From NCBI RefSeq assembly GCF_003584645.1, contig NZ_AP017928.1:5593501-5657500 (forward strand): 64,000 nt of DNA, given 5' to 3'. Source of the DNA: Methylocaldum marinum. GTDB taxonomy: Bacteria > Pseudomonadota > Gammaproteobacteria > Methylococcales > Methylococcaceae. Shown here one piece after another: positions 41,236-47,397 of the stretch (position 1 is the stretch's first letter; every line of letters begins with the position of its first letter). Below the pieces are notes generated by a model. That model saw nothing but the letters and a program-made list of their open reading frames with translations, made no database searches and had not been told where the DNA came from. A program made the translations under genes and the position numbers.

Positions 41236-41808
41236 TCAGGTTGATGTACCGTTGAACCGTCTTGCAATGGCGGGCGCTTCCGCGGCCGGCAAGCGCACGA
41301 CCACGTCTATTTTTTCGCCGAACACGCGCGAGACGATTTCGCCGCCGGCTTTTTCGACCTGGTAGGTCAGCGGCTGAAGATTTGGATATTCGATAGTGAG
41401 CTCGAGTTCGGCATATTCGACATAAGGGATCAGGGAAGCTTTTTCCAGGGCTAGTTTGGCCGTGCCGCCGTAGGCGCGGACCAGTCCGCCCGCTCCCAGC
41501 TTGATGCCGCCGAAGTAGCGGACGACCGCGACCAGGGCATTGACCACGTCGAAGCCGGAAATATGCGCGAGTATCGGTTTGCCCGCCGTTCCGCTCGGCT
41601 CTCCGGCGTCACTGAAATGGGCGATGACGCCGTTGTCGGTCTTGATCCGGTAGGCGAATGCGAGATGGTGCGCCGTCGGATGAGCCGATGCGATTTCGAA
41701 CAGCCGCGAACGCAGCTGCGGTTCGTCGGCGCACGGCAAGGCGTAGCCGATGAAGCGTGAGTGATTCACGGTGAAGCTGGATTCCGATCCCTTTTCGATG
41801 AGATACAT
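41236..41808 (-). CDS. YigZ/IMPACT-family protein
   Basis: The protein has 190 residues. The IMPACT N-terminal domain shows SRFIGYALPC, HPTAHHLAFAYRI, FSDAGEPSGTAGKPIL and VRYFGGIKLGAGGLVRAYG. A C-terminal ferredoxin-like DUF1949 domain follows. YigZ proteins are thought to act on nucleic acid or in translation regulation. The IS element ends only about 15 bp upstream of its ATG, so its native promoter has been displaced. Confidence 0.92.
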   Translation of the reverse strand: MYLIEKGSESSFTVNHSRFIGYALPCADEPQLRSRLFEIASAHPTAHHLAFAYRIKTDNGVIAHFSDAGEPSGTAGKPILAHISGFDVVNALVAVVRYFGGIKLGAGGLVRAYGGTAKLALEKASLIPYVEYAELELTIEYPNLQPLTYQVEKAGGEIVSRVFGEKIDVVVRLPAAEAPAIARRFNGTST

Positions 41809-41825
41809 CGTTTAGAAATACTTAA

Positions 41826-43203
41826 CAGGCTGTTGAAATTCGCCGCCATGCCTTCGGCTTTACCCCTTATCGGCGGCTTAATTTTTAGTGCTGAAGGTCC
41901 TTTTAGCGCTGAAATCCCGGTTCTAGCCGGTTTTCATCCCCCCGCTTGGGGTTCTTGCCGCCTTTCGGCGAATTTTGGGCAGACGCCCGCCTAGGCCGTC
42001 GACCACCGCCAGCCGAACAGCCCACCCAACCGGGTCAGGTTGTAGGCGGCGAACGTGAACACGGTCTGGGCCGCCACCTTCTTCAAACCCCGGAACCGGG
42101 TCTGGCGTAACCCGCCCACGGTTTTCGACCACCCGAAGATTTCTTCCACCCGCTTACGCCTCTTCAGGCGGGTCCGGTAGCCGGGGTGTCGGGTGGTGCG
42201 GCCATCGATGGCGGAGCCTTTTTCCTTCCGGGCGACAGGCGGCGTGACCCGCTGCTCCCGGAGAGCTTGCACGAACTCCGGCACGTCGTAAGCCTTGTCC
42301 GCCCCGACTGTCGCGCCGGGCTTCGTGACGGTGCGACCGATCATGATCTTGGCCGCGTCCCGTTCCGCCGTGCCGGTGGCGTGAGTCACCTCGACATCCA
42401 CGACCAGGCCGGTCCGGTTTTCCATCAGGGCATGGCCCATGAAGCACAGTTGGGCTTTATCCCCTTCGCTTTTCTTGTAAAGGCGAGCCTCCGGATCGGT
42501 GGTCGAGGCGTGGGTCGCATTGGCGCGCTTCTCGCCCTTGAAATCGACGGACGGATTCCGGCCGCCGGCCTCCGGCGGGGGCGAACTGCCATCCTTTTTC
42601 ACAAAGCTCTTCATGGAGGCCCACGCCTGGATCAGCGTGCCGTCCACCGAGAAATGCTCGTCCGACAGAAGGTCCCGCCATTCCGCCAGCAACACGACCC
42701 GCTCGAAAAACAGCCGGGAAATCCGCTCGTTCAGTAACCGATCCCGGTTGGCGCTGAAGGTGGAGTGGTCCCAGACCTCGGCATCCAGCGTCAGCCCGAC
42801 AAACCAGCGGTACAAAAGATTGAATTCGATCTGCTGGACCCACTGCCGCTCGGAGCGGACAGAGAACAAGACTTGGATGAGACTGGCGCGCAGCAGCCGC
42901 TCCGGCGGAATCGACTCCCGGCCGGTCCGGGCATGGAGGGCATCAAATTCCGAGTCCAGCGTGGTCAGCAGAATGTCGACCACGGCCCGGAGCTTGCGAA
43001 GGGGATGATCCTTGGGAATCCGGTCTTCCAAGGTTCGGTAGCTAAAGAGTTCTTCCTGGATCAGGTCGGCACCGCGCATGACAGCGTCCAACGTATCTTG
43101 AAATGATATTATTTTGCCATGACAAACAATCGTTTATGCCTATTTTATGCGCTCCATCCAACGAATTTATCCGGCTTCCAGGACCGAGAAAATCAACAGC
43201 CTG
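41826..43203 (-). mobile_element. IS5-family-like insertion sequence
   Basis: The ends carry CAGGCTGTTGA (41826-41836) and its inverse TCAACAGCCTG (43193-43203). They are flanked on both sides by TTAA (41822-41825, 43204-43207), which fits the YTAR target preference of the IS5 subgroup. Because TTAA is itself palindromic, the boundaries could be placed four bases further out. It contains one transposase gene. It separates yigZ from the PIWI-like fragment and supplies that fragment with its stop codon. Confidence 0.8.
41991..43079 (-). CDS. IS5-family transposase
   Basis: The protein has 362 residues from ATG 43079 (MRGADLIQEELFSYRTLEDR); an ATG at 43091 would add four. The N-terminal DUF772-type region (PPERLLRASLIQVLFSVRSE) is followed by DDE catalytic residues in FSVDGTLIQAWASMKSF, GADKAYD and RVEEIFGWSK. 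The frame is intact, so the element may still be active. Confidence 0.92.
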   Translation of the reverse strand: MRGADLIQEELFSYRTLEDRIPKDHPLRKLRAVVDILLTTLDSEFDALHARTGRESIPPERLLRASLIQVLFSVRSERQWVQQIEFNLLYRWFVGLTLDAEVWDHSTFSANRDRLLNERISRLFFERVVLLAEWRDLLSDEHFSVDGTLIQAWASMKSFVKKDGSSPPPEAGGRNPSVDFKGEKRANATHASTTDPEARLYKKSEGDKAQLCFMGHALMENRTGLVVDVEVTHATGTAERDAAKIMIGRTVTKPGATVGADKAYDVPEFVQALREQRVTPPVARKEKGSAIDGRTTRHPGYRTRLKRRKRVEEIFGWSKTVGGLRQTRFRGLKKVAAQTVFTFAAYNLTRLGGLFGWRWSTA

Positions 43204-43692
43204 TTAAGCCGCGAGTCTAAAATACCGCACAGGATCTATTATGCCGCTGCGGGGGATGGGCGGTATATTTCTGTGAAACTGCTCAGGATCTGTGCTGCTG
43301 TCGGCTGTAAGATTCGCCGCATCCAGAAAATTGCTCTTGGCCGATCCATTGATTCGGCAGATCTCTTCGATATCCGTCTTGCGGAGCGGTCTCTGTAAGT
43401 CCTGGTTGAAAATCAGCTTCGCGTCCATGTCTTCATTAAATCCGCAGAATCCGAGAGAGCGATTGGTCTTGCGCTCGTCGGCGGAACCGGCGATAGGTGT
43501 TTCCATTCTGTGAAGCCAATGCGCCATCACTTCCAAGTCATGCGGCGTGCCGACTACTCCGAGATGGATGCGCGTGCGTCTCGTCTGGGAGTGCTTGTCA
43601 TAGACGCCATAGGTGGAAATGCCCCTGCGCGGGCACACATGCTCGCCTTCGGCGAATTGCAGATGCGGCTCTTTAATGAGCAACAGCTTCAT
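43204..43692 (-). pseudogene. Truncated PIWI-domain (short Argonaute-like) gene, 5' part
   Basis: An ATG at 43692 follows directly on the stop of the SMEK gene (TAAATG). The first about 115 residues resemble the opening of MID-PIWI/short prokaryotic Argonaute proteins: LLLIKEPHLQFAEGEHVCPR, GISTYGVYDKHSQTRRTRIH, LGVVGTPHDLEVMAHWL, and LQRPLRKTDIEEI. After about residue 118 the similarity pattern stops. The tail runs through the 36-nt repeat and ends in a TAA made by the IS target site. The catalytic PIWI part is missing and does not reappear beyond the IS. The family call is from pattern memory and should be tested. Confidence 0.55.
43211..43246. repeat. 36-nt imperfect direct repeat, left copy
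   Basis: It begins GCGAGTCTAAAAT and ends ATGCCG, and matches 46296-46331 at about 27 of 36 positions without gaps, including 13 identical leading bases. It lies between the IS and the broken PIWI-like gene. Confidence 0.45.
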
Positions 43693-45146
43693 TTAACCGA
43701 ACAGCTTTTGTATAGAAGGCGGATCATCGTGCTCTGATTCGTCGGGAAGTGGCTCCCAGAGCGTTTCGTCCAAGAAGGGGGCGCCCTTTAAGGCGACGCA
43801 GTCCCCGAATGACAGAAAGGAATCGCGCTTGCCTTTTTCCGAGAAGAGGTCATCCGTGTCGATAGACCTCAACCACGCAACAAGAAAACGAAAGTGATTC
43901 AGTACAGCACGATTGTTCTCTTTGCGTTTGAGCCAACTCAGATTGGTGTGACCATAACCCGATTTCTTGAAGTCCTCGCCATAACTAAAGAACCAGGTCG
44001 GCGTGATTGACATCAGCCAATCGGAGGCCAAGCGATGGAAATCCACAGAGAATGCCAGGTGTTTTTGCGTCAGTACCTTGGAGGTATTCTTCTTGTTGTA
44101 TTTTCGTTCGAATACCTTACGACTGGACTGCCTGTCACCTCGCCACACCTCGGCACGCACATCACCATCCGTATCGCGCGGCAAAAATACGAACAGCTTA
44201 TCGTCCTTGTACCATGCGACCCGCTCTGAGTAGAGCCTGTGCTGCAGTGAAAAACGCAGCAGCGATTTGAACACTCTTTTGTGGCCTTCGTCGATTCCGC
44301 AGAATTCTCGTGCGGATATTTCCTCGGCAGTCCCCCCTCTTCGATCACGTATCGATAAGGGTGATCCGCAGTATTCAGGTCAAAGAACGTGACTAAGTTG
44401 TCATTGTAGGTTACATAGGTGGACGGAACCGGCGTCATCGCTTGCCGGCAAAACTCACCAATAGTACGCCTTAGGTTGCGCGCTCTCCCTTTTCTGTGTT
44501 TCTCCATGATTTCGTTGGCGACCTGGGCGACGTAAATCACGTTGGGGAAATAAAGTTCCACGAGGTTCCCGGTCAGTACCTCCGAAGGTTCTGCTGGCGG
44601 GTCGATGTCCTCGTCAGACGGTCCGACCGGAATTCCGCGAAGATAAGCCTTGAGAACGTTTACTGCTGCCTGCAATTGCGCGGGCGAAACGAATGGTACA
44701 CGCTGACTCAGGTCACGATAGTCAACAACGTCGGTATCTGCTGAAAAAGAGAAATTGCCATTTGTTACCGCATCAATGGCCGACTGCGAATACCTGTCTT
44801 GCTTGGCGGTGAGGATATAAACGATTAGGCGGTCGTAACGCTTGTGCAAGCCGTGCTTCAAAAATGTCTTCAGAGTGTCTTTTATTTTTGAGAGATCCGC
44901 GGTGGCTGTCACTTGTACTGCGATTCGACCGGTATCATCGGCAAGATCAATGCCCGGAAAATTGCCTTGCTCGGCATTCAGATTACGCAGTCCGGCAAAC
45001 CCGTAGAGCTCGCGCATTACGCCACAGATCACCTGTTCGGCAATCTTGTGGGTATCGTAGAGCTGCATGGCGCTGGCCGATTCCACTTCGTGGCGGAGTT
45101 GGGTTAGCAGCGTCTGGAATTCGTTGATCAAATCGAGGTGTTTCAC
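43693..45146 (-). pseudogene. SMEK-domain nuclease-like gene with a frameshift at a G6 run
   Basis: The GTG start at 45146 overlaps the end of the methylase remnant. The N-terminal half is a SMEK-type domain: LINEFQTLLTQLRHEVESAS, then IAEQVICGVMRELYGFAGLR, NFPGIDLADDTGRIAVQVTA and HKRYDRLIVYILTAKQDRYS. SMEK is a predicted restriction-endonuclease-like domain of anti-phage proteins. At six G residues (minus strand; C6 at 44332-44337) the frame changes. The original frame runs into unrelated sequence and stops at 44070. The other frame continues sensibly (EEISAREFCGIDEGHKRVFK) to a stop at 43693. One lost G restores a protein of about 484 residues. Base composition is less GC-rich than the flanks. 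Confidence 0.7.
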
Positions 45147-45419
45147 CTTATCTCGCCCCTATTGAGCCCATCCCACGCCTCCAGCACCAGATGCCGGGGA
45201 GGGATTCCGAATTTTTTCGTTACCCTTGGGTACGCGCAAGGTTTCGGACGGGTAGCTTTCGCCCAACATCGATTCCGGATCGAGGATGTAGCAGAGATCC
45301 TCGCGAGTGAGGCCATAAAGCTTCTCTGGGCGCCGTGCCAGCGCGGCTGCCGTGGAGCAAACGCCGGCACGCGGTGAAATCGCCAGAGCGCGCCGGCTGC
45401 AAAAGCGCTTGCAGCTCAA
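45143..45419 (-). pseudogene. C-terminal remnant of an Eco57I-type DNA adenine methylase
   Basis: Two frames together give the familiar end of large N6-adenine methylase/restriction proteins. EKLYGLTREDLCYILDPESM followed by YPSETLRV lies in one frame. KKFGIPPRHLVLEAWDGLNR lies in the next and ends with a TGA at 45143-45145. A frameshift sits near 45235. Nothing upstream resembles the catalytic NPPY region; the remnant instead runs into the end of vapC. The stop overlaps the SMEK gene start (GTGA), indicating the two were once one operon. Confidence 0.65.
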
Positions 45420-45497
45420 TCTCGGGGATGTCGGGCTGCCGCGGACTGCCTTCCAAGCGAAGGGTGTTGAAGTGGAGGCTAACGCGAGAAGACATCG

Positions 45498-45914
45498 TCA
45501 CAAAGCCACCACCTGGAAGCCGAAACCTTCGGCGGCGCGACATTGGCGGGCGTCGGCCGAAACGAAGACCTCGGCAGCGCAGGCTAGCGCGGCGCCCAGG
45601 TGGATGGCATCCATGCCCCGCAGGAAGTGGGATTCGAGGGCCTTGCCCGCGTGTTGGACGACCTGCGGCGTGGTGTCGCAAATGAGGGCGTCGGCGATAT
45701 CCGCCATCAAATCGCTCTTGATGATCCGATATTGGGGCTCGGTGAGGCGTCCTTCCCGTTGCAGACGGCAGAAGGCCGAAATTAGTTCGGGAACGGCGAT
45801 GACCGAAAGGGCGAGTTCGCTCGCCCGCTCGCACCAGGCCAGCACCTCGGTGGTGCCGGCTTCGTCGATGTAGCGCTTGGCAAAGGCGGAGGAGTCGAAG
45901 TAGACGCGCATCAT
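45498..45914 (-). CDS. vapC: PIN-domain toxin (VapC-like)
   Basis: This 138-residue Mg2+-dependent ribonuclease toxin has acidic active-site residues in VYFDSSAFAKRY (Asp7), VPELISAFCRL (Glu), RGMDAIHLGAALA (Asp) and VSADARQCRAA (Asp). Its ATG overlaps the antitoxin stop by 4 bases, the usual antitoxin-first order. It lies at the edge of the decayed defence region. Confidence 0.9.
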   Translation of the reverse strand: MMRVYFDSSAFAKRYIDEAGTTEVLAWCERASELALSVIAVPELISAFCRLQREGRLTEPQYRIIKSDLMADIADALICDTTPQVVQHAGKALESHFLRGMDAIHLGAALACAAEVFVSADARQCRAAEGFGFQVVAL

Positions 45915-46132
45915 TCGCCGCGCTCGTCGAGGATCAGCCGGCTGATCTCTTCGCCACCGATGGCGAGCGGGCGCGCTGGGCGCCGTTTCCAGGAAGGAAG
46001 CTCCGCACGAATGGGATGGATCTCGGCGATGGGCCTCCCGTTGCGTAGCACGCGCACGGTTTCCCCTGCCTCTACCAGATCGAAAAACGCCTTGGCATGG
46101 TTGCGAAGCTCAGTGAAAGTGGTCTCGCGCAT
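45911..46132 (-). CDS. vapB: Phd/YefM-type antitoxin (VapB-like)
   Basis: The protein has 73 residues; the ATG at 46132 is at ideal distance from GGAG, and an ATG two codons upstream (46138) is possible. The N-terminal DNA-binding part (ETTFTELRNHAKAFFDLVEA, GETVRVLRNGRPIAEI) is Phd/YefM-like. The C-terminal part (RPLAIGGEEISRLILDERGE) should wrap the toxin. It represses its own promoter in this family. Confidence 0.87.
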   Translation of the reverse strand: MRETTFTELRNHAKAFFDLVEAGETVRVLRNGRPIAEIHPIRAELPSWKRRPARPLAIGGEEISRLILDERGE

Positions 46133-46151
46133 ATGCATTCTCCGTCAGGAA

Positions 46152-46169
46152 ATGTACATAAGTGTACAT
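46152..46169. promoter_or_regulatory. Operator palindrome of the toxin-antitoxin operon
   Basis: ATGTACA (46152-46158) and TGTACAT (46163-46169) form a perfect 7-bp dyad with a 4-base spacer, about 20 bp upstream of the antitoxin start. Phd/YefM-type antitoxins autorepress by binding such palindromes. Confidence 0.7.
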
Positions 46170-46295
46170 CAAAGTTTAAGCCGTCCGCCGGTTCCGATAG
46201 AAACGGTTGGGCATGGATCGTCAGCCCACACCGGCGGGCAGGTGACTGCTCGCCTCCTTATTTCCGGAAATGTTTGGCTAAAAAAGATCAAATCA

Positions 46296-46331
46296 GCGAG
46301 TCTAAAATCGAGCCCCAAATCCATCATGCCG
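46296..46331. repeat. 36-nt imperfect direct repeat, right copy
   Basis: This is the partner of 43211-43246. It overlaps a TAAAAT element that could also serve as a -10 box for the RNase Z-like gene starting at 46366. Confidence 0.45.
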
Positions 46332-46365
46332 TAGCCGGCTTTAAGGCTTTAACAGAGAGACTTCC

Positions 46366-47397
46366 ATGAAACCGGTGTTCCATCCCGAGCTGATCAACGA
46401 CGTGTTCGGCGATCCGGCGGTTTATGTCGATTTTCTGTTCGAAAAGCGCGCCTTGTTGTTCGATTTGGGCGATTTGCGGAATCTGGCGACGCGGAAAATT
46501 CTGCGGATTCGGGATGTGTTCGTTTCTCACGCGCACATGGACCATTTTTTCGGATTCGATTGGCTGATACGGCTCTGCCTCGGGCGGGAAATGCGCATAC
46601 GTCTGTTCGGGCCGGCCCGGTTTCTCGGACAAGTGGAAGCCCGGCTTGCCGGCTATACCTGGAATCTGGTGGAAAACTACGACACGGATTTTACGTTGGA
46701 TGCAACCGAGGTGTTGAGTGATACCCGAGCACGATCCGCCCGTTTTCGCTGTCGAACCGGATTTCGGCGGGAAAACGAGCGCGAACTGGCGTTAAGCGAC
46801 GGCGTGTTGCTCGACGAAGAGAATCTCACGGTCCGATTCTGCCTTTTGGATCACAAGATCCCGTGTCTTGGCTTTGCTCTCCAGGAAAAGCTGCACGTCA
46901 ATATCTGGAAGAACCGCCTGGACGAGCTGGATCTCGAGCCCGGTCCCTGGCTTCAAGGGTTCAAGCGGGCCGTCCTCCACGGACTGCCCGGCAATACGCC
47001 GATGGCCGCCCGGCGGCGCGGAGGGGATGAAACGACGTATCGGCTGGACGATCTGGCCGGAACCATCGCGCACATCTCCACGGGGCAGAAAGTCGCTTAT
47101 GTGACCGATGCCGTTTTTCACCCGGCCAATGCCGAACGCATCGTCGGATTGGGCAAGGGGGCCGACCAGTTCTTCATCGAGGCGGTATTCGGCGACGAGC
47201 TCGCCGAGCGCGCCGCCCGGAAGTTTCACCTGACCGCTGCTCAGGCGGGAAGCCTGGCCCGCTGCGCCAAGGCCAAATTCCCGGTGCCGTTTCATTTTTC
47301 GCCGATTTATCACGACCGTGAAAATGAGCTTAGAGAAGAGTTCGAGCGGGCGTTTCGCGGGCAACTCAATCCATCGCCTTTGCAACAAGGTCTTTAA
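46366..47397 (+). CDS. RNase Z-like metallo-beta-lactamase-fold hydrolase
   Basis: The protein has 343 residues. The metal-binding motif is SHAHMDHFFGF (HxHxDH, about residues 55-60). Later ligand regions are visible in CLLDHKIPCLGFAL, KVAYVTDAVFH and FHLTAAQAGSLA. This is the RNase Z/ElaC-like branch, which in some members matures tRNA 3' ends. The sequence is divergent from classical RNase Z (no PxKxRN-type motif seen), so the substrate is uncertain. Confidence 0.82.
   Translation: MKPVFHPELINDVFGDPAVYVDFLFEKRALLFDLGDLRNLATRKILRIRDVFVSHAHMDHFFGFDWLIRLCLGREMRIRLFGPARFLGQVEARLAGYTWNLVENYDTDFTLDATEVLSDTRARSARFRCRTGFRRENERELALSDGVLLDEENLTVRFCLLDHKIPCLGFALQEKLHVNIWKNRLDELDLEPGPWLQGFKRAVLHGLPGNTPMAARRRGGDETTYRLDDLAGTIAHISTGQKVAYVTDAVFHPANAERIVGLGKGADQFFIEAVFGDELAERAARKFHLTAAQAGSLARCAKAKFPVPFHFSPIYHDRENELREEFERAFRGQLNPSPLQQGL

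Follow-up and report, generated by a model that had tools for sequence, protein, structure and literature searches.

Do a DNA methylase, a SMEK-domain protein and a PIWI protein form a new three-gene defence operon in Methylocaldum marinum? This possibility was put forward in an earlier note on a stretch of 64,000 nucleotides, hereafter called the window, which covers positions 5593501-5657500 of the 6.09-Mb genome. We examined positions 43204-45419 of the window on the minus strand. The SMEK gene, the start of a short prokaryotic Argonaute (pAgo) gene and a scrap of a methylase gene were all present where the note had placed them. The stop codon of the methylase relic overlaps the start codon of the SMEK gene, a GTG at 45146, in the sequence GTGA. 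The TAA of the SMEK gene directly abuts the ATG of ORF 43204-43692 (TAAATG). Both junctions are as described before, and the spacing is operon-like. The damage to all three genes was also found again, namely a frameshift in the SMEK gene, a deletion in the pAgo gene and the reduction of the methylase gene to scraps. The features of the locus are listed in Table 1. Very probably it represents, on the chromosome of this methanotroph of the order Methylococcales, a decayed defence island of two neighbouring modules: the remnant of a helicase/Phd-VapC/DrmMI-like methylase module and a SPARDA-class SMEK-APAZ/short-pAgo pair, intact copies of which would work as SPARDA systems.

Table 1. Features of the defence island and its surroundings (positions in the window; E-values where a model name is given).
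Feature	Position	Strand	Remarks
Defence island	41819-46274		Between UPF0029-family gene (41236-41808) and metallo-beta-lactamase-fold gene (46366-47397)
IS5-type insertion sequence	41826-43205	minus	Transposase 41991-43091; NCBIfam transpos_IS5_4 8.3e-82
3' tail of 162-aa ORF	43204-43348	minus	DNA from beyond the pAgo gene, by comparison with G780
Short pAgo (MID-PIWI) gene, 5' part	43349-43692	minus	About 114 codons; PADLOC pAgo_I; PDB short-pAgo chains
SMEK-APAZ gene, nuclease effector of the short-pAgo pair	43693-45146	minus	Broken by one small frameshift near 44337
N-6 adenine methylase relic, DrmMI-like/type IIG-like	45143-45497	minus	Internal fragment and last ~60 aa, in different frames
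VapC-type PIN toxin gene	45498-45914	minus	Intact; Pfam PIN 1e-8
Phd/YefM antitoxin gene	45911-46138	minus	Intact; Pfam PhdYeFM_antitox 1.6e-7

The identity of the SMEK gene was confirmed by a match to Pfam SMEK_N (E = 2.1e-42), and the gene was found to encode an APAZ domain as well, which the first reading had missed. The PADLOC model Aga_REase-PNTD1-PNTD2 was matched by the SMEK half with 7.1e-92 and by the APAZ half with 4.4e-57. Among known structures, the SMEK half as a single sequence matched the nuclease domain of the Kordia Mrr-APAZ protein (PDB 26bh) with 3.8e-19. A SMEK-APAZ profile reached 3.4e-46 with this entry and 3e-31 with the DREN-APAZ protein 9jsb. The APAZ half resembles the DUF4365-/DREN-APAZ chains 9qbp_A and 9jsb_D. 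Since the C-terminal half, past the frameshift, matches the Aga_REase-PNTD1-PNTD2 models and the DREN-APAZ and DUF4365-APAZ structures, the gene at 43693-45146 is, as judged from its sequence, a SMEK-APAZ gene and not a bare SMEK gene. The arrangement agrees with the SPARDA class in two respects: an APAZ domain is encoded next to the pAgo gene, in the C-terminal half of the SMEK gene, and a nuclease effector domain is fused to it, as the SMEK_N and 26bh matches indicate. The nuclease motif region IDL..VQVT..K.K is kept in the window. Here the usual (D/E)XK triad is replaced by QxT and invariant lysines nearby, which are putative catalytic residues.

With the intact gene of the congener genome G780 as reference, a frameshift in a G-run splits the SMEK-APAZ gene of the window into the ORFs 44070-45146 and 43693-44274. 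As a single assembly and a small difference in one homopolymer underlie this call, the frameshift may be a sequencing error.

The assignment of ORF 43204-43692 to the MID-PIWI proteins was likewise borne out. Its residues 1-129 matched PADLOC pAgo_I with E = 5.4e-25, the ORF matched the PDB short-pAgo chains 9om4, 8qlo and 9qbp, and a profile of 13 relatives matched SPARDA Argonautes in the PDB with values of up to 1e-115. Only about 114 of its codons, however, are pAgo. Matches of the ORF to Ntox24 and malonate_delta were weak and below the cut-offs and were rejected.

The extent of the damage became visible by comparison with G780. A profile search revealed an intact SMEK-APAZ gene in this genome (483 aa, L050:9650-11101), directly followed by an intact pAgo gene (473 aa, L050:11102-12523; PADLOC pAgo_I 2.8e-178, Pfam Piwi 1.9e-5). 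The abutting genes occupy the same chromosomal place as in the window, with the UPF0029 and metallo-beta-lactamase-fold flanks common to both, and the two loci align with 86.6% identity over 4 kb. The G780 orthologue is a short pAgo of MID and PIWI domains only, as is characteristic for the SPARDA class. In the window a deletion of ~1.2 kb has removed the pAgo gene from about codon 115 to past its stop codon (L050 11452-12662 are missing); at the junction its ends share the short homology ATCAA. Most of the MID domain and all of the PIWI domain are gone. At its end the 162-aa ORF runs for ~45 aa through downstream DNA that the deletion has fused to it; this stretch is not Argonaute. Unlike the frameshift in the SMEK-APAZ gene, the deletion is a robust call. 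Thus, in G780 both genes are intact and in the window neither is. Because the MID-PIWI core of the pAgo is deleted and the SMEK-APAZ gene is frameshifted, we regard the window copy as a decayed copy that could not work as a defence pair.

The IS5-type element lies immediately 3' of the pAgo fragment and is missing from the G780 locus. Its terminal inverted repeats are located at about 41821-41850 and 43179-43208. Genome-wide, the element was matched 20 times, with at least 16 full-length copies. Most of these matches are full-length and at least 97% identical, which suggests a recent expansion. From its position one might conclude that the insertion itself broke the pAgo gene. However, ~145 bp of DNA from past the pAgo stop, as found in G780, separate the pAgo fragment from the element, and the truncation is the ~1.2-kb deletion with short homology at both ends. 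Therefore, the insertion is not regarded as the cause of the truncation, and a role of this kind is scarcely credible.

Might the SMEK half-protein of up to 358 aa or the pAgo fragment still be of some use to the cell, for instance as a decoy or a regulated nuclease? The conserved SMEK residues are kept, and a dN/dS of 0.18 between window and G780 argues that SMEK was under purifying selection at least part of the time. This signal may, however, date from before the damage; moreover, APAZ is out of frame and the core of the pAgo is lost. A function of the fragments is therefore highly improbable, and the pair of the window is treated as decayed in the following.

Is the combination of SMEK and PIWI genes new, as had been supposed? 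SMEK is listed among the nuclease domains that are fused to APAZ (PMC10810196). SMEK-APAZ and short pAgo (KjAgo) of Kordia jejudonensis form a heterodimer according to Kim et al. 2020, as cited in PMC10810196 and PMC12205087, and weak collateral activity is reported for the Kordia pair (PMC12205087). The effectors of SPARDA systems comprise DREN, SMEK, MRR and HNH (PMC12205087). PADLOC already models both genes of the pair. With the published Kordia pair, the SPARDA effector list, the homologue in PDB 26bh and the PADLOC models at hand, SMEK-APAZ plus short pAgo is an established kind of SPARDA-class system, and the proposed novelty has to be given up. Intact SMEK-pAgo pairs in other genomes, which had been anticipated, do exist: apart from G780 at the same site, adjacent SMEK-APAZ/pAgo pairs were found in Saezia, Methylibium, Novosphingobium, Parabacteroides, Methylomonas, Vibrio tubiashii and others.

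The window shares the two-gene layout and the domains with the KjAgo system of Kordia but carries a broken copy, the intact version being that of G780. In SPARDA systems with a short pAgo and a DREN- or DUF4365-APAZ protein, such as NbaSPARDA and TmuRE-Ago, the pAgo and the APAZ half are alike in sequence, whereas the nuclease domain in the window is SMEK. Guide-RNA-directed recognition of target DNA and collateral nuclease activity are known for relatives (PMC10810196, PMC12205087). The SPARDA mechanism with filaments and collateral activity is documented for DREN-APAZ relatives, but for a SMEK-APAZ pair only weakly.

The methylase relic was compared with N-6 methylases. Over 36 aa at their C-terminus the identity is 61% (E = 1e-11), and an additional internal piece was matched with E = 6e-6. 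On the 1317-residue methylase of Acidithiobacillus caldus these pieces correspond to residues 1256-1291 and 180-229, respectively. Plasmid-borne N-6 methylases were found as relatives of the relic by tblastn, and the full-length relatives match the DrmMI (PADLOC) and type IIG models. On the A. caldus plasmid (p1) the order of the genes is DEAD helicase, helicase, Phd, VapC, N-6 methylase and HNH. Phd, VapC and the methylase scraps follow each other in the same order in the window, where VapC is 83% and Phd 84% identical to the A. caldus proteins. A complete helicase-TA-methylase module was also found in the congener G798 (C43), on a contig different from that of the island site and with a different toxin-antitoxin pair. 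Its helicases match the DpdE/DrmD and DruE models. The toxin-antitoxin pair between helicase and methylase differs by genome, with Phd/VapC in A. caldus and another PIN toxin in G798. Possibly such pairs act as addiction guards inside the helicase-methylase module.

The window agrees in gene order with modules of DISARM-like/Druantia-like helicases and a DrmMI-like methylase. Such a module consists of SNF2/DEAD helicases, methylase and associated genes; the window holds Phd, VapC and methylase scraps only. Compared with the modules on A. caldus p1 and G798:C43 it has no helicases left and hardly any of the methylase, and what remains lies beside the pAgo pair without being a component of it. 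The methylase relic and Phd/VapC are accordingly interpreted as remnants of a separate helicase-TA-DrmMI-like methylase module.

This bears on the proposal of a methylase-SMEK-PIWI unit. In such a three-gene operon the methylase would mark self DNA, and pAgo and SMEK would attack unmarked DNA. The GTGA overlap of methylase and SMEK genes is found in the window and in G780, as co-transcribed genes would have it. In G780, however, the methylase relic is already dead, with stops and frameshifts, while SMEK-APAZ and pAgo are intact. Downstream of the complete methylase modules of the A. caldus plasmid and G798:C43 no SMEK gene was found. Intact copies of the methylase are followed by HNH, an IS, an ATPase or an MqsRA-like pair (assigned by eye), never by SMEK.

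The genes upstream of the pair were compared in 12 loci: G780, Saezia, Methylibium, G259, G383, G283, G339, G769, Methylomonas LL1, Novosphingobium, Parabacteroides and Vibrio tubiashii. Two of these loci, G283 and G339, have a SMEK-APAZ gene that is itself shortened or split. Most relatives came from whole-genome profile searches; a contig scan with the SMEK half of the window yielded one locus (Saezia). A second, class-level profile search returned nearly the same sample and nothing new. No relatives were detected in viral contigs and phage records, and there were no DNA-level matches on plasmids. Directly upstream of the pair, on the same strand, lie a type ISP R-M system in Methylibium (RPME01; 60 bp away), a type I HsdM gene in Methylomonas LL1 (412 bp), a type I HsdR gene in G769 (197 bp) and the BREX gene brxL in Vibrio tubiashii (p123; 41 bp). 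Together with the DrmMI-like relic upstream of the G780 pair, a modification gene is thus found in this position in five of the 12 loci. It is absent from this position in Saezia, Novosphingobium, Parabacteroides, G259, G383, G283 and G339 (7/12). A full-length methylase of the family of the window relic stands beside SMEK-APAZ/pAgo in none of the 12 loci.

The four pairs directly behind other modification systems would fit a functional link. Yet the upstream system differs in kind each time and is missing in most loci, so that the co-occurrence predicted for a conserved methylase-SMEK-PIWI unit was not observed. Together with the dead relic of G780 and the other genes that follow intact methylases, these results largely refute the three-gene operon, which we consider very unlikely. 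The upstream modification genes look like the clustering that is typical of defence islands. Alternatively, SMEK-APAZ/pAgo pairs may preferentially join the 3' end of any modification operon (type I, type ISP, BREX or DrmMI-like), perhaps as a suicidal second layer that fires once restriction is breached. The count of five in 12 loci on which this idea draws includes the overlapping relic of the window; we consider the idea unlikely. Two genes downstream of the Saezia pair (L015:13295-18558) are probably defence genes as well: one product, of 1067 aa, weakly matches reverse transcriptases, and the other has a SEFIR/TIR domain.

In G798 the sequences that flank the island in the window, at 41818 and 46275, directly adjoin each other, which represents the site without the island. 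In G820, Phd and the start of VapC remain as a scar. At one site four congeners thus display four states: no island (G798), a Phd/VapC scar (G820), an intact pair (G780) and a broken pair with an IS element (the window). The locus is a small defence hotspot between the UPF0029 and metallo-beta-lactamase-fold genes. At synonymous sites the window and G780 diverge by about 0.85-0.95 in the flanking genes, by 0.32 in SMEK, by 0.15 in APAZ and by 0.013 in the 5' part of pAgo. This gradient (43349-47397 against L050) suggests that congeners exchanged the defence genes recently, by recombination or transfer.

What would an intact copy such as that of G780 do? How a guide is loaded, a target recognized and nucleic acid cleaved collaterally is transferred here from published relatives. 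By this analogy, the heterodimer of pAgo and APAZ domain would load a small guide RNA. Pairing of the guide with invading plasmid or phage DNA would release the SMEK nuclease, which is of the PD-(D/E)XK type. SMEK would then degrade nucleic acid non-specifically, which would result in abortive, population-level immunity.

With these assignments a candidate for a "new" SMEK-PIWI defence combination is removed, and the methylase is recognized as the relic of a neighbouring system. The series of states at one site within a single genus shows such systems coming and going, and their decay is unusually traceable here. The intact pair of G780 provides methanotroph material for the biochemistry of SMEK-type SPARDA, which has received less attention than the DREN type.
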